This document shows, in pieces, positions 604 to 19,479 of a stretch of DNA of 20,306 nt. The position numbers were made by a program, and so were the translations under genes. The stretch's first letter is position 1, and each line of letters opens with the position of its first letter. A model generated the notes under the pieces. That model ran no database searches. It saw only the letters and a program-made list of their open reading frames with translations, and had not been told where the DNA came from. The DNA comes from a virus. The stretch is from positions 1 to 20,306 of the IMG/VR virus record IMGVR_UViG_3300034117_000335, one strand, 5' to 3'.

Positions 604-2376
604 ATGAATACAAGAGCAGAACAATTAATGGAGTATGCTAGAATTATGAAAGATGCTCCATATGCGTTAAAAACGTATCTTCAAACATACGATAATACTC
701 AGAAAAAATATGTTCCATTAGAGTTATTCCCTGACCAAGTTCAGTTAATACAAGACTATGAAACGTACAATGAGAATATCACAAGAAAATATAGACAAGC
801 TGGTGTAACAACCGTAACAGCGGCTTGGATTTCAAAAAAATTACAAACCGCAAAACCTGACGAACCTGAGAGGGTTTTGTTAATTGCGAATAAAAAAGAT
901 ACCGCAGTAGAGATGGCGAATAAAGTTCGTCACTTTTTAGAACAATGGCCCGAGTGGTTAAATGTTGGATTTTCACCCGATAAAAACTCAGAAAGTAGAT
1001 TTAGATTAAATAATGGATGTGAAGTAAAGGCGGTTGCAACATCAGCAGATGCTTTACGTGGTTATACACCAACCATTCTTGTATTTGATGAGGCTGCTTA
1101 TATTGAAGCTGGTGAAGACTTTTGGGCAGCATCTATGGCGTCCTTATCAACGGGAGGTAAGATTATTCTTGTATCAACCCCAAATGGTTATGACCCGATT
1201 TATTATGGTGTTTATGACCAAGCATTACGTGGATTAAATGATTTCCATATCACAGATTTAAGATGGTTTAAAGACCCTCGTTACACTAAAGATTTGCGTT
1301 GGGTTAAGTGTCAGGATATATGTCACTACATGTTAAATAGGGAACTATATAATGATGATGAGGTTGTTATTACTGAATTCGACATAGATAATTACCAAGA
1401 GTTAGAAGAACAGGGTTATAAACCTTTTTCGTCTTGGTTTGAATCAATGTCTAAGAAATTTAAATATGATAGACGTAAGATTGCACAGGAATTGGAATGT
1501 GATTTCTTAGGTTCAGGAGATGGTGTAATTCCGGGAGATGTTCAAGAGAATATTGCAAAGAATATGGTACGTGTACCTAAAGAAAAATACATGCAGGGTA
1601 CATTTTGGCATTGGAAAGAACCAATACAAGGACATCGTTACATTATGGGAGTTGATGTTAGTAGGGGAGACAGTGAAGATTTTTCATCCATATCAATAAT
1701 TGATTTTGATGATAGGGAACAGGTTGCAGAATATATAGGTAAGATACCACCGGATGATTTAGCTGCAGTTGCATATAAATGGGGTATATTATACGAGGCA
1801 TTTATTGTTATTGATATAACTGGAGGAATGGGTGTTGCAACATCGAGAAAGTTACAAGAAATGAACTATAAAAACCTTTATATCGATGGTATTAACACTC
1901 AAAATAAATGGGAATATAACGCTAAGGCGATGGAAAAAATACCAGGACTTAACTTTAATAATAAAAGAACTCAAATAGTTGCCGCCTTTGAGGAACAACT
2001 AAGAAAAGGGTTTCAAGTAAGGTCAAGTAGATTATTAAACGAACTTAATACGTTTGTTTATATGAATGGTCGTCCTGACCACATGAAAGGTGCTCACGAC
2101 GATGCAATTATGGCTCTTTCTATGGCACTATACGCTTCTGACTTGTGTTTCAATCAGTTACAAAAGAATGAAAATGCAAATAAAGCGATGTTGGAGTCTT
2201 GGACAATGACTGAACGTACATATGAACCAAATAAATCTTTTTATTCTTATGGTACGGCTTTTGATCAGATTGGGTCAATGGGGTTTGATGATAACCCAGC
2301 CTTTAAAGATATGCGTAACGTTCCCGGTAAGAGTCAATATCAAGAATTTAATTGGTTATTTGGAAGATCAAAATAA
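604..2376 (+). CDS. 17: Terminase large subunit (T4 gp17-like)
   Basis: This is the DNA-packaging motor ATPase and headful nuclease, which docks on the portal during head filling. The 590 residues match the T4 gp17 plan. The N-terminal ATPase has a P-loop RQAGVTT at residues 64-70, a Walker B strand ending in Asp162-Glu163 (ILVFDE) and the coupling motif STPNG at 191-195. The C-terminal RNase H-fold nuclease has acidic residues Asp351 (GVDVSRGDSEDF), Asp404 (VIDITGG) and Asp499-Asp500 (HDDAIMAL). The P-loop lacks the usual lysine before the Thr pair (Val instead); deviant P-loops with an upstream Arg are known in terminases. Length is close to T4 gp17 (610). The start is fixed by the late box three bases upstream, and no Shine-Dalgarno is present. 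The portal gene follows after 53 bases and has its own late box. Confidence 0.97.
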   Translation: MNTRAEQLMEYARIMKDAPYALKTYLQTYDNTQKKYVPLELFPDQVQLIQDYETYNENITRKYRQAGVTTVTAAWISKKLQTAKPDEPERVLLIANKKDTAVEMANKVRHFLEQWPEWLNVGFSPDKNSESRFRLNNGCEVKAVATSADALRGYTPTILVFDEAAYIEAGEDFWAASMASLSTGGKIILVSTPNGYDPIYYGVYDQALRGLNDFHITDLRWFKDPRYTKDLRWVKCQDICHYMLNRELYNDDEVVITEFDIDNYQELEEQGYKPFSSWFESMSKKFKYDRRKIAQELECDFLGSGDGVIPGDVQENIAKNMVRVPKEKYMQGTFWHWKEPIQGHRYIMGVDVSRGDSEDFSSISIIDFDDREQVAEYIGKIPPDDLAAVAYKWGILYEAFIVIDITGGMGVATSRKLQEMNYKNLYIDGINTQNKWEYNAKAMEKIPGLNFNNKRTQIVAAFEEQLRKGFQVRSSRLLNELNTFVYMNGRPDHMKGAHDDAIMALSMALYASDLCFNQLQKNENANKAMLESWTMTERTYEPNKSFYSYGTAFDQIGSMGFDDNPAFKDMRNVPGKSQYQEFNWLFGRSK

Positions 2377-2429: not shown

Positions 2430-4241
2430 ATGGCAGAACAGAATTATACCGTCTTTCAGAAACTAACAAGAATGTTTGGTTATCCGGGTCAATCGAATCC
2501 GGACAAGGCACCATCTTTTAATTTTAATAAAGATGAGTTATTAAAAACAGATAGTAGAGAAGACTACGAGAGAGCATTGTTGCAAGCCCAACAATCTCAA
2601 TACATTGCAGATAAATGGACTAAGTTAGACCAATCGGTTTATAACCAATCTGTTTATTATGAACCAAATAGATTAGCAGCATATTACGATTACGAATCTA
2701 TGGAATTTACTCCTGAAATTTCTGCATCGTTAGACATATACGCAGAAGAATCTACAACAATGTCCGAAAAGGGTGAAATATTAACCATTTATTCAGAATC
2801 AGATAGAGTTAAAAGTATATTGGTTGATTTATTTAACAATAAGTTAGATATCAACACTAATTTACAAATGTGGGCTAGAGGTCTTTGTAAGTATGGTGAT
2901 GATTTTGTTTATTTAAAGATAGACCCCGAAAAAGGAATTATCGGTTGTCAACAACTACCAAATATTGAAATAGAAAGATTGGAAGGTGCAACAACAAAGA
3001 GTCCAAATCAAAGTTCCGATTTAAAATCACCAACAAGGGAGTTAAGATTTACTTGGAAAAACAAAGATATGGAATTCCAAGCTTGGGAGGTTGCACACTT
3101 TAGATTATTAGGTGATGATAGAAAGTTGCCATATGGTACGTCTATGTTAGATAAGATCAGAAGAATTTGGAAACAACTTTTACTTGCGGAAGATGCGATG
3201 TTAATTTATAGAACATCAAGAGCACCTGAAAGACGTGTATTCAAAGTATTCGTTGGTAATATGGATGATAAGGATATTGAACCATATGTACAACGTGTAG
3301 CAAACAAATTCAAAAGAGACCAAATACAAGACCCACGTAATGGTAACGTAGATATGAGATATAATCAAATGGCGGTTGACCAAGATTATTTCATTCCTGT
3401 TCGTGACCCGTCACAAACAAACCCAATTGAAACATTACCTGGAGCTCAAAACTTGGGTGAGATTGCCGATATCGAATATATCCAAAAGAAATTATTAGCA
3501 GCGTTACGTATACCTAAGGCTTTCTTAGGTTTCGAAGAAGTTGTTGGTGATGGTAAAAATCTTGCATTAATGGATATTCGTTTTGCGAGAACAATCAATA
3601 AAATACAAAAATCATTAATTCAAGAATTAAATAAAATTGCATTAATGCATCTTTATTTATTGGGATTAGAGGACGATTTAAATAGTTTTTCATTATCATT
3701 AACCAATCCATCACAACAATCCGATTTATTAAAAATTGAAACTTGGAAAGAAAAGATTACTCTTTACAAAGATGCAACATCCGACCAATCTCAAGTAGGT
3801 ATCTTACCTGTATCACATACGTGGGCTAAGAAAAATATATTAGGTATGAGTGATAGTGAGGTATTACTCGATTTACAACAACAACGTTTAGAAAGAGCGG
3901 TTGGTTTTGAATTACAAAATAGTCAACTCATTATTAAACGTTCTGGTGTGTTTGATGATGTTGATAAGAAATATGGTATCCCTGAAGAAGAGAGAGCCGC
4001 GGCCGAAGCGGCTGCTGCGGGTGGTGAAGGTGCCGGAGGAGATATGGGAGGAATGCCGCCGCCAGCACCTGCTGCAGGTGGAGGTGAGGCACCATTAAGT
4101 GAATCAACATCTAAAAAATCAAAAATATTAGGTATGTTAGGTGAGGAAAAAGAAGATTTTAATGTTTTGTTTGATATGGAAAAGGCACAACAGAATATTT
4201 ATGAAATAGAAAATAAATTGAACGATATTTTAAACGACTAA
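2430..4241 (+). CDS. 20: Portal vertex protein (T4 gp20-like)
   Basis: This protein forms the dodecameric ring at one capsid vertex through which DNA enters and leaves, and it nucleates prohead assembly. At 603 residues it is longer than T4 gp20 (524). Family hallmarks visible are the N-terminal segment LAAYYDYESMEFTPEISASL, the WARGLCKYGDDFVYLKID region, the clip/stem region with RIWKQLLLAEDAMLIYRTSR followed by APERRVFKVFVGN, and the IPKAFLGFEE segment. The extra length is largely a C-terminal low-complexity tail (about residues 522-555) of Ala, Gly, Glu and Pro, unusually GC-rich for this genome. A possible protease site LSE lies at 556-558, just after the tail. The start is set by the late box at 2419. 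The next gene follows after only two bases. Confidence 0.96.
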   Translation: MAEQNYTVFQKLTRMFGYPGQSNPDKAPSFNFNKDELLKTDSREDYERALLQAQQSQYIADKWTKLDQSVYNQSVYYEPNRLAAYYDYESMEFTPEISASLDIYAEESTTMSEKGEILTIYSESDRVKSILVDLFNNKLDINTNLQMWARGLCKYGDDFVYLKIDPEKGIIGCQQLPNIEIERLEGATTKSPNQSSDLKSPTRELRFTWKNKDMEFQAWEVAHFRLLGDDRKLPYGTSMLDKIRRIWKQLLLAEDAMLIYRTSRAPERRVFKVFVGNMDDKDIEPYVQRVANKFKRDQIQDPRNGNVDMRYNQMAVDQDYFIPVRDPSQTNPIETLPGAQNLGEIADIEYIQKKLLAALRIPKAFLGFEEVVGDGKNLALMDIRFARTINKIQKSLIQELNKIALMHLYLLGLEDDLNSFSLSLTNPSQQSDLLKIETWKEKITLYKDATSDQSQVGILPVSHTWAKKNILGMSDSEVLLDLQQQRLERAVGFELQNSQLIIKRSGVFDDVDKKYGIPEEERAAAEAAAAGGEGAGGDMGGMPPPAPAAGGGEAPLSESTSKKSKILGMLGEEKEDFNVLFDMEKAQQNIYEIENKLNDILND

Positions 4242-4243
4242 AA

Positions 4244-4984
4244 ATGAATAATTTTGGGAAAATAAAGTCTAAGTTACTAAAGAAACTAACCGAGGCTTAT
4301 ACCAACGATAACTTTAAAGGGAATACAAAAAATTTAATTAAAGTTGTTAAGAAAAATAAAGACTTTAAAGAAATGTATCTTTTTTATGAAGAAATAGAAA
4401 ATAAGTACATTGAAGATAAAGAGGTTGCTAAATTATATGTTGAGCAACTTGGTACTCTTTTAAAAGATAAGTCAAAAAAATTAACTAGTTTTTGTGAGGT
4501 TATAAATATGTCAGTTCATGATGTACAAGTAGAATCTAACGAACTATATGATAACATTGACCAACTTTTAGAAGATGACAATTTAAATAATATAGATAAA
4601 AAGGTTATTGCCAAATTAAAATTAGTAGAACATTTAACAACTAAAAAAGAAAATGTGGTTGAATCAAGTAAATCACACACAGTAAATGAAAATTTATTAC
4701 ACGCTGTTTTAGCAAACAATTTTAACGTATTATATACAAACACATTATCTGAAGAACAAAAAACTGAATTAAAAACAATTTTAGATTTAAACGATACTGA
4801 CTTAGAAACAAAAACTACAGAATTAAAAGAATCACTATTAGATAAAATTGGAAACTTAATTAATGAATCTACAGATTCGGAAATGATTAAAAAATTATCA
4901 TCAGTAAAGGATGAAGTACTAAAAAAGGAAACATCAAAATTAAATTATTACAGATTAACAGAATTAAAAAATGGTCTTAGTTAA
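4244..4984 (+). CDS. Possible prohead core protein, family not recognised
   Basis: This 246-residue, Lys/Glu/Asn/Leu-rich, helical protein is predicted mostly coiled coil with no membrane segment. I do not recognise its family by sequence. It begins two bases after the portal stop and is surely co-transcribed with it. In T4 the matching slot between genes 20 and 21 holds 67 and 68, small prohead core proteins cut by the gp21 protease. Consistent with that, residues 15-17 followed by Ala18 read LTE-A, matching the (I/L)-x-E cleavage rule, so a 17-residue leader could be removed. A prohead core role is therefore an inference from position, composition and the cut site. The stop codon lies inside the loop of a bidirectional terminator shared with the converging bS21 gene, which overlaps it by eight bases. 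Confidence 0.85.
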   Translation: MNNFGKIKSKLLKKLTEAYTNDNFKGNTKNLIKVVKKNKDFKEMYLFYEEIENKYIEDKEVAKLYVEQLGTLLKDKSKKLTSFCEVINMSVHDVQVESNELYDNIDQLLEDDNLNNIDKKVIAKLKLVEHLTTKKENVVESSKSHTVNENLLHAVLANNFNVLYTNTLSEEQKTELKTILDLNDTDLETKTTELKESLLDKIGNLINESTDSEMIKKLSSVKDEVLKKETSKLNYYRLTELKNGLS

Positions 4985-4995
4985 GACCATTTTTT
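4966..4995. terminator. Bidirectional terminator inside two overlapping gene ends
   Basis: An 8-bp stem (ATGGTCTT/AAGACCAT, 4971-4978 with 4983-4990) and a four-base loop are flanked by five A on the left and five T on the right, so it reads as an intrinsic terminator in both directions. The stop codons of the + strand core-like gene and the - strand bS21 gene both fall within the hairpin. Confidence 0.85.
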
Positions 4996-5168
4996 ATTTG
5001 TTGTACATACCTTGCTTTTAAAACCTCTTTCCTTTTAGTGACTGAAGGTTTAACAAATTCTTGTCTCTCCCTCAATTTTTGGATTTGCTTAGTTTTTTGA
5101 ACTTTATTTTTATAAGTTCTTAAAGCTGTTTCGATACTACGTTCCTTTGTTACGTCAATTATTATCAT
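4977..5168 (-). CDS. rpsU: Phage-encoded ribosomal protein bS21
   Basis: The 63-residue product is a small-subunit ribosomal protein bS21 homologue, expected to join host 30S subunits near the 16S rRNA 3' end. Visible family features are a short beta start (MIIIDVTKERSIETALRTYK), a run of basic helical residues, and the signature LRERQEFVKPSVTKRKEVL, close to the Bacteroidetes form (R-x-RQ-x-F-x-KPSV-x-R). The length is that of a complete Bacteroidetes bS21. Tyr54 is present at the position which, as I recall from the Flavobacterium johnsoniae ribosome structure, contacts the anti-Shine-Dalgarno tail. The gene is alone on this strand amid head genes, with a Bacteroidetes-type promoter upstream and no Shine-Dalgarno before its ATG, unlike, as I recall, flavobacterial chromosomal rpsU. 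It converges on the preceding gene. Assignment to bS21 is confident; the effect on translation is inferred. Confidence 0.93.
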   Translation of the reverse strand: MIIIDVTKERSIETALRTYKNKVQKTKQIQKLRERQEFVKPSVTKRKEVLKARYVQQIKNGLN

Positions 5169-5185
5169 AACATATAATTATATCG

Positions 5186-5214
5186 CAAATATATAAAATA
5201 TTTTGGATTTACAA
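5186..5214 (-). promoter_or_regulatory. Bacteroidetes-type promoter for bS21
   Basis: On the - strand a TTG (5214-5212) is followed after 18 bases by TATATTTG (5193-5186), matching the flavobacterial housekeeping consensus TTG-N(17-23)-TAnnTTTG. The -7 element ends 17 bases before the bS21 ATG, giving a short leader with no Shine-Dalgarno. No late box is present, so this gene is probably transcribed by the unmodified host polymerase, early in infection. Confidence 0.75.
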
Positions 5215-5270: not shown

Positions 5271-5696
5271 ATGAAAACAGGTAAGTACATCCCATTAGGG
5301 ACTTACAATAATGTAAAGTATGGTTATGGTACCGTAGACTTCAAAAATCTTAAAACCATTTATATAAAACTAAATTCTTGGTTACAACCCGAAAACGAAA
5401 CTGATGATTATGATTATCTAATCTCAAAATCAAGAAGAAAAATAAAAGAATTAATTTATAATTTAAAAAATTCAAATTTTAAACAACAATCAATTGTTGA
5501 TTTAGACATAAGAACTAAAGGAATTAAGGTTGAAAAGAGGTCTTTTATGAATTTAGAAATAACATTATTTGTTGAAAAACAATTCGATATTAGATCAAAA
5601 GAAATAAAAACATTTATCACAGATTTGACCGAATCTGTTGTTGAGGATGGTTTAATTGATAAAAAACTATTCAATTTTTACAAAAGCAAGAAATAA
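5271..5696 (+). CDS. Unknown conserved-looking phage protein
   Basis: I do not recognise this 141-residue protein. It is basic, with alternating strand-like segments (YGTVDFKNLKTIYIKL, SIVDLDIRTKGI, FMNLEITLFVEK) and a helical C-terminal part, suggesting a compact alpha/beta fold. There is no signal peptide, membrane segment or cysteine. It lies between the bS21 gene and the prohead protease gene. A bidirectional terminator upstream should block readthrough from the portal unit, yet I find neither a clean late box nor a clean TAnnTTTG element in the 102 bases before it, so its promoter is unclear. An upstream ATG at 5258 is in another frame and stops after eight codons. Another head-assembly factor is possible from its position, but nothing in the sequence proves it. 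Confidence 0.75.
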   Translation: MKTGKYIPLGTYNNVKYGYGTVDFKNLKTIYIKLNSWLQPENETDDYDYLISKSRRKIKELIYNLKNSNFKQQSIVDLDIRTKGIKVEKRSFMNLEITLFVEKQFDIRSKEIKTFITDLTESVVEDGLIDKKLFNFYKSKK

Positions 5697-5710: not shown

Positions 5711-5718
5711 TATTTATA
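5711..5718 (+). promoter_or_regulatory. Candidate late promoter box TATTTATA (protease)
   Basis: TATTTATA lies 16 bases before the protease ATG, a spacing that would give a leader of about 10 bases, in contrast with the 2-3 base spacing at the terminase and portal genes. Confidence 0.6.
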
Positions 5719-5734
5719 GTAATAAAATCTATAA

Positions 5735-6418
5735 ATGAAGATATTAGGACCAAACGAAACGGGTAGAGGAATTTTAATAGAATACGACGCAGGTCACGTT
5801 TCACCCGACGACAACAAAAAAATTATTTCGGAAATGAAGGATATGGACTTTTCACAAGACCTTATCCTTTATGCCGTTTTACAAAAATACGACACTCCAA
5901 ATAAGAATGGTAGAATATACCCTGAAATCTTATTAAAGAGAGAAAACGAAAAATACCAAACACTTATTAAGAAAGGTGGTGCGTTAAATGAATTAAACCA
6001 CCCCTCATCTTCTCTTATCGATTTAGATAGAGTTTCCCACTCAATTCTTGAGACATGGTGGGACGGAAAAATCCTTATGGGTAAAATAAAACTATTCACT
6101 TCACCGGGATGGAAGAAGATGGGTATCGTATCTACTAAAGGTGACCAAGCGGCAATGTTAATTATGAACGGAGCCACTTTGGGTATATCTTCTCGTGGAG
6201 TTGGTTCCCTAAAAAACATTAAAGGTCAAAATATCGTTCAGGAAGACTTTGAATTAGTATGTTTTGATTTAGTGTCATCTCCATCAACTCCAGGAGCTTA
6301 CATTTTTAGTGATCCTTCTGATAGAGAACAATATCAAGAATCTGAAATAAAAAAACCTGCGGTTGATGATAGAATGTCTAAACTTATGGGAAAATTAGAT
6401 AGTTTTTTGGGTAAATAA
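5735..6418 (+). CDS. 21: Prohead maturation protease (T4 gp21-like, family S77)
   Basis: This serine protease is built into the prohead core and, on completion of assembly, cuts scaffold, core and capsid proteins to trigger expansion. The 227 residues resemble T4 gp21 (212). The likely catalytic His89 sits in LNELNHPSS, the nucleophile Ser152 or Ser153 in GATLGISSRGVGS, and Asp178 in FDLVSSPSTPG, all in the family order. The central TWWDGKILMGKIKLF strand region is also typical. There is no signal peptide or membrane segment. It is followed by the scaffold and capsid genes as in T4. Its likely substrates can be read from this window: capsid, scaffold and several small proteins carry an (I/L)-x-E-A site. 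Self-cleavage sites are not obvious. Confidence 0.95.
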   Translation: MKILGPNETGRGILIEYDAGHVSPDDNKKIISEMKDMDFSQDLILYAVLQKYDTPNKNGRIYPEILLKRENEKYQTLIKKGGALNELNHPSSSLIDLDRVSHSILETWWDGKILMGKIKLFTSPGWKKMGIVSTKGDQAAMLIMNGATLGISSRGVGSLKNIKGQNIVQEDFELVCFDLVSSPSTPGAYIFSDPSDREQYQESEIKKPAVDDRMSKLMGKLDSFLGK

Positions 6419-6472: not shown

Positions 6473-6480
6473 TATTTATA
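6473..6480 (+). promoter_or_regulatory. Candidate late promoter box TATTTATA (scaffold-capsid)
   Basis: TATTTATA lies 23 bases before the scaffold ATG, in the 85-base gap after the protease gene. It would drive the scaffold-capsid pair, since no box precedes the capsid gene itself. The predicted leader is A-rich and lacks a Shine-Dalgarno. Confidence 0.65.
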
Positions 6481-6503: not shown

Positions 6504-7682
6504 ATGACTGAAAAATCAATTTTAGAACAAGCGTTACTTCAAGTACAGACACTTGAAGAAGCAGTAAAGCAAAATGCAAAGGGTATACTTGCTTCAACTA
6601 TGAAACAAGAACTAAATGACTTGCTTAAAGAATCATTGGAAGAAGAGGAAGAAACTGAAGTTGAGGTTGACGAACAACCTGAGACTGAAGAGAATCCTGA
6701 AGAAGAGGGAGATGATATGTCAGATGACGATGCAACAGCAGACGACTCTGAAAATGATGAAGACCTCGATAACGAACCAAACAAAGACATTGAAGGATTA
6801 GATTCTGAAGATGACGAAGAAGAAGATGAAGATCTTGCTTTACCGCCAGCAGAAGAAGGTTCTGAAGATGAGGACGTAATGGATATGACCGGTGCTTCAG
6901 ATGATGAAGTATTAAAAGTTTTCAAAGCAATGAAACCAGAAGATGGTATCGTGGTTAAGAAAGACGGAAATAGCATTGAGTTTGGTGACGGAGAAGACGA
7001 TTATATTATCAAACTTGATGACGAAATGGATTCAGAGTCTGAGTTTAATGCAGAACCCGAATTCGGTACTGAAGAAGATGAATTTTCAGAAATGGATATG
7101 ATGGGTGATGACATGGAAACTGATGAGGAAGAAACAATTTACGAAATCGAAATTGATGAAGAAGAAGGGGAAGAAGAAGTTGCTGAAGGTGATGAGATGG
7201 AAATCGAAGCTACTGAAGCTGCAAGAACTTATGGTAATGACGTTAGAACTCCAGCTAACCAAGGTAAAAAATACAAAGCTGGTCGTCACGAAATGAACGA
7301 AGAAGTCGAAAAGTTAAAGAAACAAAATTCTGAATACAAGAAGGCTTTAGTTTTATTCAAAGACAAACTTAACGAAGTTGCTGTGTTTAACGCAAACTTA
7401 GCTTACGCTACACGTTTATTTACTGAACACTCTACTACTAAACAAGAGAAATTGAACATATTAAAGAGATTTGATTCAGTTTCAACAATGAATGAATCTA
7501 AAGGTTTATTCAACACAATCAAATCTGAATTAGGTACAAAAACAACAGTTACCGAGTCAGTAGTTGGAAAAATCTCTAATACCCCATCTACATCATCATC
7601 TCAAGAGGTGTTATCAGAAGCTAAGGCTTATGAGAATCCACAATTCAGAAGAATGAAAGATTTAATGGGAAAAATAAAATAA
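6504..7682 (+). CDS. 22: Acidic prohead scaffold protein (T4 gp22-like)
   Basis: This is the probable major scaffold of the prohead core, degraded by the protease before DNA packaging. It is 392 residues: a helical N-terminus (about 1-42), a very long Glu/Asp-rich stretch (about 43-235), a basic linker, a coiled-coil region starting near residue 265 (NEEVEKLKKQNSEYKKAL), the helical NANLAYATRLFTE segment, and a Ser/Thr-rich tail. LSE-A at 370-373 matches the expected protease rule and would release a basic 20-residue C-terminal peptide. Position between protease and capsid genes, acidity and coiled coil all fit gp22, although T4 gp22 is shorter (269) and the acidic block makes up most of the difference. 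The acidic block may mimic DNA charge inside the prohead. It is co-transcribed with the capsid gene 32 bases downstream. Confidence 0.9.
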   Translation: MTEKSILEQALLQVQTLEEAVKQNAKGILASTMKQELNDLLKESLEEEEETEVEVDEQPETEENPEEEGDDMSDDDATADDSENDEDLDNEPNKDIEGLDSEDDEEEDEDLALPPAEEGSEDEDVMDMTGASDDEVLKVFKAMKPEDGIVVKKDGNSIEFGDGEDDYIIKLDDEMDSESEFNAEPEFGTEEDEFSEMDMMGDDMETDEEETIYEIEIDEEEGEEEVAEGDEMEIEATEAARTYGNDVRTPANQGKKYKAGRHEMNEEVEKLKKQNSEYKKALVLFKDKLNEVAVFNANLAYATRLFTEHSTTKQEKLNILKRFDSVSTMNESKGLFNTIKSELGTKTTVTESVVGKISNTPSTSSSQEVLSEAKAYENPQFRRMKDLMGKIK

Positions 7683-7714: not shown

Positions 7715-9445
7715 ATGGGAGCATTATTAGAATCAGGTATGGTAGGTAACATCGGTCTTAAGCACTTACGTGTTATCAAAGAAGATACCATCAAAAAATG
7801 GGATGACTTAGGCTTTTTAGAAGGTCTTGACGGTCACCAAAAAGATAACATCGCGCAATTATATGAAAACCAAGCGTCTTATTTAATCAACGAAGCAGCA
7901 GTAGCTGATGCGTCTGGTTCATTCGAGACTGTGGTTTTCCCAATCATTCGTCGTGTATTCTCTAAATTATTAGCAAACGATATCGTTTCAGTACAAGCAA
8001 TGAACTTACCAATTGGTAAATTGTTCTTCTTTATCCCTAAAATCCAAGAAAGAAATGGTGCTGGTCACTATTCTCCATACGGAATGCCGGGTGCTGGTGG
8101 AAGCGCTGCAACTGGTTACACAGGTGGTAACTTATATGACAGATTCTACGAAGCTGGTGATGGTAACAGTCCTGATACAGGTCTTTTTGATTATTCAAAA
8201 GGTCAATATTCAGCTGTAACTTTAACTGCAGTTTCTGCGGTTACTTTCAGTAATGGTGCAGTTTCAGCTGTTGCTATTTCTGGTGTTACTGGTGCTTCAA
8301 ACGCACAATCATCTTTAATCTTGAAGTTTACAGGATTCTCTAAAGATGGTCAAGGTAAATTAATCGGACCAAATGGTAACGCAATGGATACTGAAGAATT
8401 TTTAGCATCTGCAGAAGTTAAATACTTAACTGCATCTAAAAACTTCAACGTTGTTACTCAGAAATATGGTAAGGGTATTGTTGAATATGGTCAACAATCA
8501 TCATCAAGTAACTACCCTTCAGGTAACTACAACGACATCTGTGATGAAGATGGTGTTATCTATGTAAGTGTTGATATGCAGAACTACGATCCAACATCTG
8601 GTTTCTCTAACATCACTTTACCTACAGGTACAACAATTGGTGATTTCACATTAACTTTCAGAACTTACGATACTTTAGAATTTGAAGATCAAATCGGTGA
8701 AGTTTCTTTCGATTTACAATCAGTAACAGTTTCTGTAACTGAAAGAAAATTAAGAGCTACATGGTCTCCTGAATTGGCTCAAGACGTTAGTGCATTCCAC
8801 AACATCGATGCTGAAGCTGAATTAACAGCTTTATTATCTGAGCAAATCGCAGCAGAAGTTGACCGTGAAATCTTACGTGATTTACGTAAAGGTGCGGCTT
8901 GGAAAGCTAAGTGGGATTACAATGAGTGGAAATATGGTGGAGCATCAGGTGCTACATTACAAGGTTACACTCAAAAAGACTGGAACCAAACTTTGGTAAC
9001 TAAGGTTAACCAAATTTCAGCTCAAATCCATAAGACTACATTAAGAGGTGGTGCTAACTGGATCGTTGTTTCTTCAGAAGTTTCTGCAGTATTCGATGAT
9101 TTAGAGTATTTCCACGTATCTAACGCAGCTCCTGAGCAAGATTCATACAACATGGGTATCGAGAAAATCGGTTCTCTTGCTGGAAGATATCAAGTATATC
9201 GTGATCCTTACTTCCCAGCTAGCAAGATCTTAATTGGTCACAAAGGTAAATCATTATTGGACGCTGGTTACATCTACGCACCATATGTACCTTTACAATT
9301 AACTCCAACAATGTACAATCCGTTCACAATGACTCCAATCAAAGGAATCATGACACGTTACGCAAAGAAAATGGTAAACAACCGTTACTTTGGTGTAATC
9401 GACGTGAAAGGTATCACTACATTCTCTTTGGATACATTAAGATAA
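7715..9445 (+). CDS. 23: Major capsid protein (T4 gp23-like)
   Basis: This HK97-fold protein forms the capsid hexamers. The 576 residues compare with 521 in T4. Conserved stretches include the N-terminal FETVVFPIIRRVFSKLLAND followed by VSVQAMNLPIGKLFFF, WSPELAQDVSAFHNIDAEAE with the following LTALLSEQIAAEVDREIL, and GGANWIVVSSEVSAV. INE-A at residues 58-61 aligns with the T4 maturation cleavage after Glu65 and would leave a mature protein of 516 residues. The extra length is mainly a Ser/Ala/Thr/Gly/Val-rich insertion around residues 160-300 with degenerate AVS repeats, perhaps a surface domain. Codons are enriched in C-ending AAC, ATC and TTC compared with neighbours, as expected for the most abundant protein. 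No gp24-like vertex protein follows. A strong terminator ends the unit. Confidence 0.97.
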   Translation: MGALLESGMVGNIGLKHLRVIKEDTIKKWDDLGFLEGLDGHQKDNIAQLYENQASYLINEAAVADASGSFETVVFPIIRRVFSKLLANDIVSVQAMNLPIGKLFFFIPKIQERNGAGHYSPYGMPGAGGSAATGYTGGNLYDRFYEAGDGNSPDTGLFDYSKGQYSAVTLTAVSAVTFSNGAVSAVAISGVTGASNAQSSLILKFTGFSKDGQGKLIGPNGNAMDTEEFLASAEVKYLTASKNFNVVTQKYGKGIVEYGQQSSSSNYPSGNYNDICDEDGVIYVSVDMQNYDPTSGFSNITLPTGTTIGDFTLTFRTYDTLEFEDQIGEVSFDLQSVTVSVTERKLRATWSPELAQDVSAFHNIDAEAELTALLSEQIAAEVDREILRDLRKGAAWKAKWDYNEWKYGGASGATLQGYTQKDWNQTLVTKVNQISAQIHKTTLRGGANWIVVSSEVSAVFDDLEYFHVSNAAPEQDSYNMGIEKIGSLAGRYQVYRDPYFPASKILIGHKGKSLLDAGYIYAPYVPLQLTPTMYNPFTMTPIKGIMTRYAKKMVNNRYFGVIDVKGITTFSLDTLR

Positions 9446-10539: not shown

Positions 10540-10854
10540 ATGGGTGAGGTAGACTATTCTAAATTAAGGTTAGATGTCTTAGAAAAAATGATACATTCTA
10601 GAGGAATCGAATGTAAAATGAAAAAAGACGAAATGATCAAGGTTTTGAAACTTGATGATGAGGGGAAGTATTTTCCACCCATGAAAGAAACAACATATGA
10701 AAAACATGAAGGTGGGTTAATTGTGGGGATAGATTTAACCAATAAAAACCATTTAATACAAATGGGTAATTTAATTTTAAAAAAAGAGGCTAGAAACCTA
10801 AACAGATATGCCTCCGGTATGTTGTACTATTGGGCAAAACAAAAATTAATTTAA
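10540..10854 (+). CDS. Small SAP-like DNA-binding protein
   Basis: This 104-residue protein has an N-terminal helix-extended-helix region, roughly residues 6-38 (LRLDVLEKMIHSRGIECKMK then KDEMIKVL), that fits the SAP/HeH pattern found in proteins touching nucleic acids. The C-terminal half is basic and aromatic (RYASGMLYYWAKQKLI) with no known motif. It is the first gene of a two-gene operon from a host-type promoter and is followed after one base by the dCMP deaminase gene. This suggests early or middle expression and a role in nucleic-acid metabolism. The SAP assignment rests on pattern only. The start is fixed by the promoter, whose -7 element ends four bases upstream. Confidence 0.82.
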   Translation: MGEVDYSKLRLDVLEKMIHSRGIECKMKKDEMIKVLKLDDEGKYFPPMKETTYEKHEGGLIVGIDLTNKNHLIQMGNLILKKEARNLNRYASGMLYYWAKQKLI

Positions 10855-10855
10855 T

Positions 10856-11296
10856 ATGAATTGGACAGAATATTTTTTAGAGATTGCTGAGGTTGTAAAA
10901 CTAAAATCTAAAGACCAATCTACACAGATAGGTGCAGTTGTCGTTGGTGAGGGTAGAAACGTCCTTTCTACGGGTTATAATTCGTTTCCAAGGGGTTTGG
11001 ACGATTCATTACAAGAACGTCAGGAAAGACCCGAGAAATACTTCTGGATAGAACATGCGGAACGTAATGCAATTTATAATGCCGCTCTTGAGGGTGTATC
11101 ACTCAAAAACTCAACAATTTATCTAACATCGGGATTACCTTGTATGGATTGTGCTAGAGGAATTGTAAATTCAGGTATAAAGACGGTATATTGTAAGGAA
11201 ATCTGCACCACTAAAAATAAAGAAAAGTGGGAGGAATCCCAAAGTAAAGCTAAACAACTTTTAAGTGAGTGTGGGGTTAATGTAATCTATTACTGA
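10856..11296 (+). CDS. cd: Deoxycytidylate (dCMP) deaminase
   Basis: This zinc enzyme converts dCMP to dUMP, feeding thymidylate synthesis and raising the dTTP supply for an AT-rich phage genome. The 146 residues hold the complete cytidine-deaminase active site: His67 and Glu69 in IEHAERNAIYNAA, and Cys96 and Cys99 in GLPCMDCARGI. The N-terminal STQIGAVVVGEGRNVLSTGYNSFPRG segment is typical of the ComEB/T4 Cd family. No deletion or missing key residue is seen, although T4 Cd is longer (193). It lies one base after the SAP-like gene in a host-promoter operon and overlaps the converging reductase gene by seven bases at its 3' end. No clear terminator follows. A broader nucleotide deaminase of the same family cannot be excluded. 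Confidence 0.93.
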   Translation: MNWTEYFLEIAEVVKLKSKDQSTQIGAVVVGEGRNVLSTGYNSFPRGLDDSLQERQERPEKYFWIEHAERNAIYNAALEGVSLKNSTIYLTSGLPCMDCARGIVNSGIKTVYCKEICTTKNKEKWEESQSKAKQLLSECGVNVIYY

Positions 11297-12072: not shown

Positions 12073-12834
12073 TTACCAAGTACGACAAGCCCAATATCTT
12101 GGTTTCCAACGAGGACCTGGATTTGAACAATTATGTCTAGCTCTAAACGATTTACGTCTCTTAGGATTATTTTTCTTAATAACCATTCTTTTTCCTTTGG
12201 CGGACTTACCTCCAAAACCGAAATTTACTTTAACCACCTTACCCTTGTCATTCTTGACGTACACTTTAAACTTTTTAATATCGCCTTGCATAATTTTTCC
12301 AAGTTGAACTTTACGTCCTTGATACTCAGCCTCATTTAACATGTTGGTTGATTCAAAATTTGTATTCTGAACGGAACCCGATTCGTCTTCATAAATTAAA
12401 ACAGGGGTTTCTTCATTATATTCAAAAAGTCTTTGGAACTGGTCTTCGGTTATTTGAATGATTGTTCTTTTTTCCATTTGTTCATCAAATTTTGTCATTG
12501 TTGGTTTATTTCCCTTACCAATTTTAGGGTCTTTTTTTTCAGCTCTCCTCTTTTGTGAGGTCATTGATTTTTTTTCTTTCTTGTCATATGAAGAAGCCAC
12601 TTTTGGGGTATCTTTTGATACTTTCTTAGATGGTCTACATTTTGGGTACCCCTTTCTTCCTTTTTCACCATTCGCATCACTACGTCCACATGGTGGATGT
12701 TTACCATCTATTTTTCTACTAACATCTACCCATTTTTCTTTAAACCATCTACCCAGATCTTCTTGTAGTACCTCACCATTATTGATGGATAGTTTAATAT
12801 ATTGTAGGTCTTCTTCGTTTATGTGTATTTTCAT
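12073..12834 (-). CDS. Two-module basic protein: DUF5872-like plus RHNC-type C-terminal domain
   Basis: This 253-residue, strongly basic protein has two parts, each preceded by a similar leader. Leader one (KIHINEEDLQYIKL, 2-15, ending LQE at 23-25) precedes a segment resembling DUF5872 (WVDVSRKIDGKHPPCGRSD, 35-53, then GYPKCRP and a Lys/Arg-rich stretch). Leader two (IIQITEDQFQRLFEYNEE, 125-142) is followed by LNE-A at 166-169 and a C-terminal domain ending RKSFRARHNCSNPGPRWKPR then YWACRTW, a block I recall from many tailed-phage proteins of unknown function. Cleavage at LNE-A would free an 85-residue, very basic, two-Cys domain, plausibly DNA-binding in the head. The gene lies between two other leader-bearing genes with gaps of three and nine bases. 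Family names come from memory, and the packaging role is inferred. Confidence 0.85.
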   Translation of the reverse strand: MKIHINEEDLQYIKLSINNGEVLQEDLGRWFKEKWVDVSRKIDGKHPPCGRSDANGEKGRKGYPKCRPSKKVSKDTPKVASSYDKKEKKSMTSQKRRAEKKDPKIGKGNKPTMTKFDEQMEKRTIIQITEDQFQRLFEYNEETPVLIYEDESGSVQNTNFESTNMLNEAEYQGRKVQLGKIMQGDIKKFKVYVKNDKGKVVKVNFGFGGKSAKGKRMVIKKNNPKRRKSFRARHNCSNPGPRWKPRYWACRTW

Positions 12835-16463: not shown

Positions 16464-18386
16464 TTAAAATGTACCTCCCCCTACTGTTAATAATCCTGGT
16501 GGTATAAATACTGAACCGACAAATGGACTTGGGTGTGGGATAATTACCGAAGTATTACTTGCCGCAATAAATCCATTTGTATCTTGTTCTTCTACATGAC
16601 CACTAATGACTGATTTTACTAAATCGATTATTTTATTATCCTCACCAAATATGGGTGAGGTTGAAACACCAGCTTCTTCTAATTTTTCAATTGCACGAAT
16701 GACCGCACCATCTTCACTATAACCAGGTTTTTGTAAGAAAAATGGTAATAAAAAGGTACTAATTCCCGCAGTTACGAATCCACCACCAAAACCTGACAAA
16801 GCTAAATCAATTGCTTTATTTATTAAACCATATAAGTCTTTACAGGTATCAAAACCATTTTCAAGTATTTTTGTTAATATTGCAATTAATGACAATAAAA
16901 TTAATCGATATCTTCTACCTTTCTTTTTTAATATTGATGCGGCTATGTCGGTCAAAAATACTAATAAATCTTTTTTAACTCTTCTCCAAAACTCATTTAT
17001 AAATTTCCACAATAATTTTGTAATAATTTCATTAAATAATTTATATAAAATTTTCATCATTTGTTTGGCGGTTTTTATGACCCCACCAACACCAACAACT
17101 AAAACTTTATAAACTATTATAAATGGTAAGAAATATTTTGGACTTAATAACGAACCAATAAGTGCTCTTGGTAAACTAAGTATAAAAGTATTTAAAATGG
17201 ATAAATGAAAATTATCGGGAGGTATCGAACCTTCGGATTGGTTATGCGCATCGGACGCCGCATTAAATAAGGCATCATTTACTGAATCATTTAAATTACC
17301 ATCATCATAAACAAAATCTTCAAAATGTGTTGGATTTATGGGTATTTTAAAATTATTACAATCTCTAAACTTTAATACCTTATCTAACCTATCTTTTTCA
17401 TCGTCCAAGTCAACTCCCTCAACGTCGTCAAAATCAAAATAAGATTGGACATCTTCGTCATTCTCATTAAATTCTGTGGTTGCGTTAGGAATTTTACCAT
17501 TTTTAGGATTTCCGCACATCGCACATAGTTTGGCCAATAATCTATTTAAATCGTTAAAACCTTTATCAAATAAAGGAGGTTCACTACCATCTCCATGTAA
17601 TGTCATATATATTGCGGTTTTAGTGACACCACTAAAATCTACTTGTTCAATACTTGAATAATAATCAGTAAAAAATGTTTTTATATTTTTACCTTGTAAA
17701 CCACTTACATTATATCTTTGATTTGATTCGTCCCATGACAATGAGAATAAAGAATTTCCATTTGTTGCCCTATATAACTCAGGGGTGTTAGGTGCACCGA
17801 ATAGACTATGTAATTTTCTATTCATTTTAATTAATCCATTATCTGGTGATTCCTTCTCGTAAACAATTTTACCAACATTTGATGTTGGGTCAACAGTTAA
17901 TACATTCATGAAATCAAATTCTTGTGGTTTTAATGTTGCACTATCAGTTGAACCAAATGTTTGATTTGCACCACATATACCATCACCAGCAAATAATATT
18001 TTTTGAACGGATTCTAAAATGATTTGTTGTGATGACCTTAAAGTTTCAATGGCCGATTCATTTGTAAGTTGTCTTAATCTTTGTTTTGAAAATAACTTAT
18101 CCGAAGATTCGACCTTTATGTTTTTGGCGCTTACAAATTTTTCTACAGTTTCCAATAAATCAGAAAAAACATCACTAGCACGATTTATCCCACCTTCTAA
18201 CTTTTTTAGTTTTTTGGCGGAAAAATCTGATAGAGTTTTTGATAAATCATCTGCACCTTTTAGTGCTTTGTTCTCATAACCATCAATAAATTTGTTGGAC
18301 TTTTCTTTGGCGTTATCTTTTGCTCTTTTAATAGCATCGATTTTTTGCCTAATCTTTTTTCTCGTTTCTTTTATTTTATTGGACAT
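16464..18386 (-). CDS. Large structural protein with hydrophobic C-terminal half
   Basis: This 640-residue protein is of unrecognised family. Residues 1-130 are charged helix and coiled coil. A globular middle (about 130-390) includes CAMCGNP (Cys288, Cys291) and an acidic loop (306-336). From about 395 the protein is strikingly hydrophobic: segments near 395-437, 473-487, 493-508 and 532-550 look like membrane helices, separated by Lys/Arg-rich turns. The C-terminal 30 residues are Pro/Gly/Val-rich. It lies between a small coiled-coil gene (overlap of one base) and the 66-residue gene, upstream of the gp5-like gene. A tail or baseplate component that inserts into the host membrane at injection would fit, as would a tape-measure-like role, though it is short for one. 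Both are inferences. Confidence 0.82.
   Translation of the reverse strand: MSNKIKETRKKIRQKIDAIKRAKDNAKEKSNKFIDGYENKALKGADDLSKTLSDFSAKKLKKLEGGINRASDVFSDLLETVEKFVSAKNIKVESSDKLFSKQRLRQLTNESAIETLRSSQQIILESVQKILFAGDGICGANQTFGSTDSATLKPQEFDFMNVLTVDPTSNVGKIVYEKESPDNGLIKMNRKLHSLFGAPNTPELYRATNGNSLFSLSWDESNQRYNVSGLQGKNIKTFFTDYYSSIEQVDFSGVTKTAIYMTLHGDGSEPPLFDKGFNDLNRLLAKLCAMCGNPKNGKIPNATTEFNENDEDVQSYFDFDDVEGVDLDDEKDRLDKVLKFRDCNNFKIPINPTHFEDFVYDDGNLNDSVNDALFNAASDAHNQSEGSIPPDNFHLSILNTFILSLPRALIGSLLSPKYFLPFIIVYKVLVVGVGGVIKTAKQMMKILYKLFNEIITKLLWKFINEFWRRVKKDLLVFLTDIAASILKKKGRRYRLILLSLIAILTKILENGFDTCKDLYGLINKAIDLALSGFGGGFVTAGISTFLLPFFLQKPGYSEDGAVIRAIEKLEEAGVSTSPIFGEDNKIIDLVKSVISGHVEEQDTNGFIAASNTSVIIPHPSPFVGSVFIPPGLLTVGGGTF
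16503..16510 (-). promoter_or_regulatory. Possible internal late box TATTTATA
   Basis: On the - strand an exact TATTTATA occurs inside the 3' end of the 640-residue gene, 40 bases before the 66-residue gene. It could boost expression of the two genes that follow. It is in codons for Val-Phe-Ile, so chance is also possible. Confidence 0.35.
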
Positions 18387-18780: not shown

Positions 18781-19479
18781 TTATTCTAAAAACCCACCTA
18801 AAATTCCATCATACAACTTTTTAAATCTTTTGAGGGATATTCTAATTTCTTTGGTTGACAATGAAGTCATCTCTCTTAAAGAGAGTAAGATAAGGTTTTT
18901 ATTAAATTTGTTACCATCCCCAACTTGGAATATCTTATCAAAATTGTTAAAAATCTCAAGTAAAGCGTACCCTAATTTTTGTTCATTTTCGGTTAAATCC
19001 TCATTTTCAACAAAAAGTTCTAACTCTATACTCATTTTTATAATGATATCCCTGTAGTCCACAACGTATTCATCTATTACATATGATAGGTCCGATCTAC
19101 CCTCAATGTCTGATGATATATCATCATAGGATACTTGTCTATTTTGTTCCTTTGTATCCTTCTGTATTGCTCCCATAAGGTAGTTCTTACAGATGGTCCC
19201 AAAATATGAATAGGCTTTGTGGTTTTTTGTGTGGTCAAATTTATTAATCTTAGTAATTAAAAAGGACATAGTATCTGTATGAATTTCTTCAAATTCTAAG
19301 TCTTTTCTGTATAGTTTATAACGTCGAATAATTGATTCGACCATTATAATTAGGGGTTCACGTAAATATTCATTGAATATCTTATTTCTTTCTGCTTCGT
19401 CTGTACTTTCTAAGTAACTAACTACCGCCTTCTCTTGATCCTCCCCAAAATAAATTTTTTGGGTTCTTGGTCTTGGCAT
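18781..19479 (-). CDS. 55: Late-gene sigma factor (T4 gp55-like)
   Basis: This RNA polymerase sigma factor is expected to direct host core polymerase to late promoters. The 232 residues compare with 185 in T4 gp55. Residues about 28-107 match sigma region 2: a helix through IFNEYLREPLIIMVESIIRR, the core-binding-like segment FEEIHTDTMSFLITKINKFD (63-82), and the melting and -10 recognition segment HKAYSYFGTICKNYLMGAIQ (87-106). A short acidic linker follows, then a C-terminal helical part (LILLSLREMTSLSTKEIRIS) that could be a reduced region 4. The hydrophobic-acidic end GILGGFLE may contact the sliding clamp, as the gp55 tail does; that is inference. It shares a one-base overlap with the glycosyltransferase gene upstream and has no late box of its own, as expected for a factor made before late genes. 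Confidence 0.9.
   Translation of the reverse strand: MPRPRTQKIYFGEDQEKAVVSYLESTDEAERNKIFNEYLREPLIIMVESIIRRYKLYRKDLEFEEIHTDTMSFLITKINKFDHTKNHKAYSYFGTICKNYLMGAIQKDTKEQNRQVSYDDISSDIEGRSDLSYVIDEYVVDYRDIIIKMSIELELFVENEDLTENEQKLGYALLEIFNNFDKIFQVGDGNKFNKNLILLSLREMTSLSTKEIRISLKRFKKLYDGILGGFLE

Follow-up and report, generated by a model that had tools for sequence, protein, structure and literature searches.

The closest described relatives of the gene studied here are the bS21 genes of Bacteroidetes jumbo phages, which Chen et al. 2022 (PMC9723584) mapped on the Flavobacterium johnsoniae 7JIL ribosome. The main text of that study reports that position 54 is aromatic in every phage bS21 protein, with emphasis on Tyr54, and bS21 transcripts that were seen together with those of core structural genes. 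Substitution of bS21 was proposed to favour translation of phage mRNA, and the conserved C-terminus was suggested to serve this substitution. On the cellular side, passages of McNutt 2023 (PMC9976891) describe F. johnsoniae as an organism whose genes generally do without a Shine-Dalgarno (SD) sequence and whose ribosomes initiate less well on SD-less mRNAs when bS21 is absent. An extended SD lets these bS21-lacking ribosomes translate rpsU, making bS21 autoregulated. A phage bS21 has also been followed into a ribosome experimentally, in that the protein of pelagiphage HTVC008M enters E. coli ribosomes according to the results given in Mizuno 2019 (PMC6375957).

The stretch of viral DNA analysed here, referred to as the window, is 20,306 bases long and contains a bS21 gene within a T4-like head module. 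Its features are listed below by position.

604-2376, plus strand: terminase large subunit (Pfam, PHROG), with a hairpin and T-run followed by TATTTATA at 593-600 directly before the ATG
2430-4241, plus strand: T4-like portal, gp20 (Pfam), with TATTTATA at 2419-2426
4244-4984, plus strand: hypothetical gene, convergent with bS21 and overlapping it by 8 bases
4965-4996, no strand assigned: palindromic, bidirectional terminator-like hairpin with a 14-pair stem, terminator-like on both strands
4977-5168, minus strand: phage bS21 (rpsU-like), 63 aa plus stop, ATG at 5168-5166, Tyr54 kept (open reading frame, profiles, alignment)
5173-5180, minus strand: TAATTATA, 4 nt upstream of the bS21 ATG, a variant of the late-promoter-like element TATTTATA
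5186-5193, minus strand: TATATTTG, host-type -7 box upstream of bS21
5271-5696, plus strand: hypothetical gene, divergent from bS21, a conserved neighbour
5735-6418, plus strand: prohead protease, S77 (Pfam), with TATTTATA at 5711-5718
6504-7682, plus strand: acidic gene between protease and capsid genes, scaffold by position only, with TATTTATA at 6473-6480
7715-9445, plus strand: major capsid protein gp23 (Pfam), with an A-rich leader that lacks TATTTATA
18781-19479, minus strand: possible late sigma factor resembling gp55 (weak matches), which might read TATTTATA

The initial annotation had described 4977-5168 as a full-length bS21 homologue of Bacteroidota type with Tyr54 kept, and had staked this on a profile match. 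A search with Pfam Ribosomal_S21 (PF01165) was run and the match was found at an E value of 2e-11 (43.8 bits against a cut-off of 27, profile positions 2-54 of 55), together with matches to TIGR00030 (32.8 bits, cut-off 28.95) and to PHROG 21469, 'ribosomal protein S21' (E 1.4e-5). Among solved structures the best match is bS21 of F. johnsoniae (7jil_z, E 3.2e-12), on which the phage protein aligns gap-free over residues 1-62, placing Tyr54 on Tyr54; the residue is present in 35/35 distinct sequences and in 68/71 of a wider set. A predicted model (pLDDT 86, pTM 0.44) matched bS21 chains with Z up to 5.4 in a comparison with nine chains that did not include 7jil. Scanning IMG/VR yielded 273 bS21 relatives, the best 80 of which were kept. 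Over 33 distinct coding sequences the median dN/dS was 0.11 (528 pairs, 410 of them usable), which indicates purifying selection; on both counts the match is more than chance. Judged from its sequence, the gene is a genuine bS21 of the known Bacteroidota phage group, and the description given in the initial annotation holds.

Conservation is uneven along the protein. K40, P41, S42, R46, A52 and Y54 are among the residues identical in the phage and Flavobacterium sets, while 16 positions have no residue common to the two, 14 of them within residues 1-30. Eleven of these N-terminal positions (8-10, 14, 18, 21, 23, 24, 27, 28 and 30) agree with a specialised ribosome, the reading of the initial annotation and of Chen et al. 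2022, in which the changed N-terminal half of phage bS21, near the mRNA path, would make the ribosome prefer phage messages. We regard this reading as possible and rather doubtful, on grounds that are given below with the origin of the gene and its signals. Such strong N-terminal divergence is not expected of a pure host mimic.

The placement of bS21 inside a head-gene cluster was borne out by the terminase of T4 type, the gp20 portal, the S77 protease and gp23, all above their Pfam cut-offs. The initial annotation did not mention that bS21, between the portal and prohead protease genes, runs on the strand opposite to this module. Among the best 80 of the 273 relatives, order and orientation of the head genes around bS21 were kept in 80/80 loci as far as the contigs reach, and in 80/80 bS21 stood alone on the opposite strand with no core gene missing in between; all eight core genes were present in 34/80. 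When loci were collected via the neighbour gene instead, which drew partly on the same contigs, bS21 was found at this place and on this strand in 75/77 with room for it. Two relatives, L305 and L310, have portals 78-80% identical and retain the two neighbour genes with no bS21 between these (about 3850-4000), a hairpin with a T-run standing at the empty site. Their records, both fragments, contain no bS21 elsewhere. On account of these empty sites, bS21 is a separate cassette open to gain and loss, and it may be dispensable, judging from two fragmentary relatives. A passenger gene (moron) that brings along a promoter and a terminator and plays no role of importance would account for a stand-alone cassette on the opposite strand that is missing from two relatives. 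It would leave the dN/dS of about 0.11 and the presence of bS21 in nearly all loci with room for it unexplained, and we give it hardly any credence.

The strongly conserved 141-aa product of 5271-5696 is predicted to fold as beta3-alpha-beta2-alpha and matched one uncharacterised myovirus model (TM 0.77). A ribosome-related role for it was considered and dropped, as no PDB fold match was obtained at E<=0.001 and the gene is kept in the two relatives without bS21. The product of 6504-7682 had no Pfam match and reached only PHROG 9338 (function unknown) at E 0.04, and the possible sigma factor matched PHROG 234 at E 4.8e-4 and Sigma70_r2 below its cut-off (E 0.0011). bS18 was found in none of six long phage contigs, all of which are possibly fragments. 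The window further holds a dCMP/cytidine deaminase gene at 10856-11296 on the plus strand (PF00383, E 2.4e-19) and, at 12073-12834 on the minus strand, a DUF5872 match whose protein has a basic, Cys-containing C-terminus (SFRARHNCSNPGPRWKPRYWACRTW).

The last 8 bases of bS21 overlap the end of the convergent gene 4244-4984, and the arms of the hairpin at 4965-4996 hold the last codons of both, bS21 ending in KNGLN and the convergent protein in KNGLS. Across 78 distinct junction cases, 76 of them with bS21, both proteins ended in NGL plus at most one residue in 75/76 (the exception being L048) with an overlap of either 8 bases (58 cases) or 4 bases (18 cases), while in the two cases without bS21 the convergent protein has a different ending. 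The codon for Leu62 is CTT in 66/71 distinct coding sequences; Leu16, Leu32 and Leu50 are mostly encoded by TTA (39/71, 45/71 and 54/70). Covariation was analysed on the 13 of 25 distinct junctions that show no length changes. In these, 99.4% of the pair cells of the stem were paired and two pairs were changed on both sides (7 cells). The covariation score and the percentage paired were reached by 0/500 shuffles; two of the five measures were not above shuffles, namely pairs changed on both sides (132/500) and pair types (488/500). The NGL ending common to the two proteins is best explained by a single palindromic terminator within which both C-termini are encoded. With respect to the final few residues only, this is a rival to the suggestion of Chen et al. 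that the C-terminus is conserved for substitution, and Tyr54 lies outside the terminator-encoded end. The conserved end of phage bS21 should accordingly not be taken as a ribosome contact without allowing for the terminator.

In a tree of 71 chosen rows and 64 columns, the 18 rows of the window's group and 6 rows (from L211-L221) that represent a second viral lineage formed one clade with support of 99/94. Both phage lineages were placed with cellular homologues from outside Flavobacterium at 87/82, a branch that was not starred. Local BLAST against 126 cellular sequences had put Flavobacterium first for the window bS21, at 44-45% identity. Flavobacterium as the closest source was abandoned once 395 genomes of the phylum had been drawn, 97 of them with a match at E<=1e-7, since the eight best homologues of this draw are nearer at 51-54% identity. 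The clade of these nearest homologues, which is among the cellular rows on the 87/82 branch, may be Chitinophagales. All eight have a Lys or an Arg as residue 27 and carry LRERQ, exact or slightly varied. Lys27, which had seemed specific to the phages in the comparison with Flavobacterium, was dropped as a phage-only mark for this reason. Residues such as Lys27 thereby count against the specialised ribosome, as part of the N-terminal divergence may reflect the donor lineage. In Chen et al., as far as stated in the text, most phage bS21 are closest to Flavobacteriia (PMC9723584). Possible clues to the host are the nesting of bS21 among homologues of Bacteroidota and the host-type -7 box. Several further bS21 genes were recorded along the way. 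The second viral lineage (L211-L230) carries bS21 with a TATTTAT-like upstream motif and no SD. A 72-kb viral contig (L210, 5001-5195) has a bS21 almost identical to the cellular L347 and is a possible prophage or contamination, and two cellular genomes of the phylum, G112 and G127, gave two and three bS21 matches respectively. Microcystis phage Mel-JY01 (L232) has an annotated RpsU (S21) at 10557-10784 on the head-gene strand two genes after the protease, which was not among the tblastn matches to the window bS21 at E<=0.01.

Pairing with the anti-SD was computed against an assumed 14-nt 16S tail, with -13 kcal/mol as the threshold for an extended SD. All 80 Flavobacterium rpsU leaders paired at -18.4 kcal/mol or better, while 0/81 phage bS21 leaders (29 distinct) fell below -13 kcal/mol; none reached -7 and the best stood at -5.4. 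Nor did any of 21 further viral bS21 loci, including L210, which looks cellular, reach -7. The 20 nearest cellular homologues paired at -12.7 or better in 18 cases, with L388 and L390 as the exceptions, and 15 of the 18 lay below -13. The control element of the closest cellular homologues is thus missing from the phage gene. Across the phylum an SD before rpsU is common and not general, with leaders below -13 kcal/mol in 20/30 of the top-scoring cellular loci and in 23/46 of those readable among 60 hand-picked regions whose start codons were set by rule. Since none of the 81 phage leaders carries a strong SD, the gene appears, from its leader, to stand outside the known autoregulation of host bS21.

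Phage genes in general are equally poor in this signal. In two long relatives GGAGG was found in the 40 nt upstream of the start in 0/201 and 1/131 ORFs and AGGAG in 3/201 and 3/131, and phage messages therefore do not call for an exposed anti-SD. The idea that phage bS21 frees the anti-SD for SD-bearing phage messages was rejected for this group on that ground and because Tyr54 is kept. SDs are missing from phage genes as they are from host genes, which speaks against the specialised ribosome in that a closed anti-SD alone gives phage messages no advantage over those of the host. Any selectivity would have to rest on the altered N-terminal half or on the very short leaders predicted for phage messages.

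T4 late promoters consist of a lone -10 element, TATAAATA, and the consensus of the host-type -7 box is TAnnTTTG. Over the 332 ORFs of the two long relatives, TATTTATA was the most enriched 8-mer at -35 to -6 relative to -110 to -81 (30 versus 4). It occurred 54 times in the 150 nt upstream of these ORFs, ending 3-5 nt before the ATG in 16 cases, 3-7 nt in 19 and 3-18 nt in 38, and was directional, being present at -40 to -1 of 23/201 and 20/131 ORFs versus 4 and 5 for the reverse complement. Counted on both strands of the whole contigs, TATTTATA was not clearly over-represented (63 versus a shuffle mean of 61.6, and 47 versus 34.8); the window has 8 copies versus 4.3 in shuffles. The signal is thus one of position and strand only, not of whole-contig abundance. 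It precedes the terminase, portal, protease and scaffold-position genes, both in the window and in the majority of listed relatives. Of the 8 window copies, 2 on the minus strand (4501-4508 and 16503-16510) have no listed gene following them on that strand. A scan of 9 of the 43 listed proteins behind TATTTATA against PHROGs gave three head, packaging or connector proteins, one family of unknown function and five without a match. At the terminase gene the hairpin with its T-run ends just upstream of TATTTATA, so close that a separate -35 box would not fit, a likeness to the lone element of T4 late promoters.

Before bS21 itself, exact TATTTATA was present in 5/29 distinct leaders (shuffle mean 1.1). 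The looser TA(T/C/A)TTAT(A/T) was found 3-6 nt before the ATG in 26/29 (shuffle mean 4.0, maximum 12), with a spacing of 4 nt in 20 of the 26, and even this pattern is missing in 4/81 loci. The host-type -7 box occurred in 25/33 distinct longer leaders (shuffle mean 1.0). As the leaders are related to one another and had been inspected before the loose pattern was chosen, these counts describe rather than prove. The position of TAATTATA 4 nt before the ATG suggests late, nearly leaderless transcription of bS21, for if the TATTTATA-type element is a -10 box the message would have next to no leader. The 19 of 54 TATTTATA copies lying 3-7 nt before an ATG would point to (nearly) leaderless late mRNAs more widely, a possible mark by which a specialised ribosome could tell phage messages apart; by contrast, leaders exceed 10 nt in 87% of predicted F. 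johnsoniae transcripts, a figure given in PMC6847099. The A-rich leader of the capsid gene, which lacks TATTTATA, argues against leaderless starts being the norm among late genes and thereby against this reading.

Entry of phage bS21 into host ribosomes could also serve as a poison that blocks host translation. The E. coli ribosomes that had taken up the pelagiphage protein retained about 5% activity, as reported in Mizuno 2019 (PMC6375957), although that assay placed a phage protein in a foreign ribosome. In the transcript data of Chen 2022 (PMC9723584), moreover, bS21 is expressed with structural genes, whose products need translation. We consider a poison quite improbable.

On balance we think it probable that the gene belongs to a Bacteroidota myovirus from the group of Chen et al. 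and encodes a functional bS21, which replaces host bS21 on the 30S subunit and keeps the 16S tail sequestered. Homology, kept residues, purifying selection, a fixed location, the missing SD and the shared terminator are established for the locus; late use of the promoter, uptake into ribosomes of the actual host and a net effect on translation are inferred. Phage bS21 would be made together with the virion genes and would exchange with host bS21 on 30S subunits, where Tyr54 and the similar C-terminal half would keep the 3' tail of the 16S rRNA hidden. With no SD in its leader, the phage gene should, unlike host rpsU, be translated independently of bS21-free ribosomes. Once resupply of host bS21 stops, ribosomes would be held in the SD-less initiation mode used by phage late mRNAs. 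An altered choice of mRNA, with preference for phage messages, is a hypothesis beyond this. The poor activity of ribosomes with pelagiphage bS21, the relatives without the gene, the strong N-terminal divergence and the fact that an SD before rpsU is not phylum-wide all weigh against the favoured explanation.

A further, unlikely elaboration is a one-way lock. Host rpsU needs bS21-free subunits for strong translation, so that filling them would cut its resupply; phage bS21, made from an SD-free, leaderless, late message that bS21-replete ribosomes could translate, would fill these subunits, install itself and silence host rpsU, and its altered N-terminal half may favour leaderless phage messages. 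The locus bears on the idea that phages may remake host ribosomes by swapping one protein. As host rpsU is switched on when ribosomes lack bS21 and the phage gene lacks that element, the takeover idea is testable, and F. johnsoniae reporters and bS21-depleted strains are among the materials described in McNutt 2023 (PMC9976891).

Compared with known systems, the window shares with the phages of Chen et al. a reverse-strand bS21 that is flanked by two hypothetical genes and surrounded by TerL, portal, protease and capsid genes, as laid out in the text of PMC9723584. Those phages have complete genomes of 293-331 kb, while the record here has 20,306 bases and the longest relative contig seen 286,785 bases. 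The reading of the initial annotation is not new, the same structure, residue and takeover idea being given in the text of Chen et al. 2022 (PMC9723584). Nowhere does the main text of that paper use "promoter", "terminator" or "leaderless", and a literature search over titles, abstract openings and passages retrieved no published SD-less phage rpsU. HTVC008M bS21 is also phage-borne but belongs to a Pelagibacter phage and, in the account of PMC6375957, was assayed in E. coli. Francisella bS21-2, as portrayed in passages of PMC9578407, is a bS21 variant whose loss alters protein output and is a cellular, not a phage-borne, gene. The autoregulated rpsU of McNutt 2023 belongs to the same family and has the same anti-SD pocket residue, Tyr54; going by the passages on its regulation (PMC9976891), host rpsU of Flavobacteriales relies on an extended SD, whereas the phage gene is without any. 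This SD contrast and the terminator encoding both C-termini, neither of which was found in passages of Chen et al. (PMC9723584), are added here together with the TATTTATA-type element before bS21.
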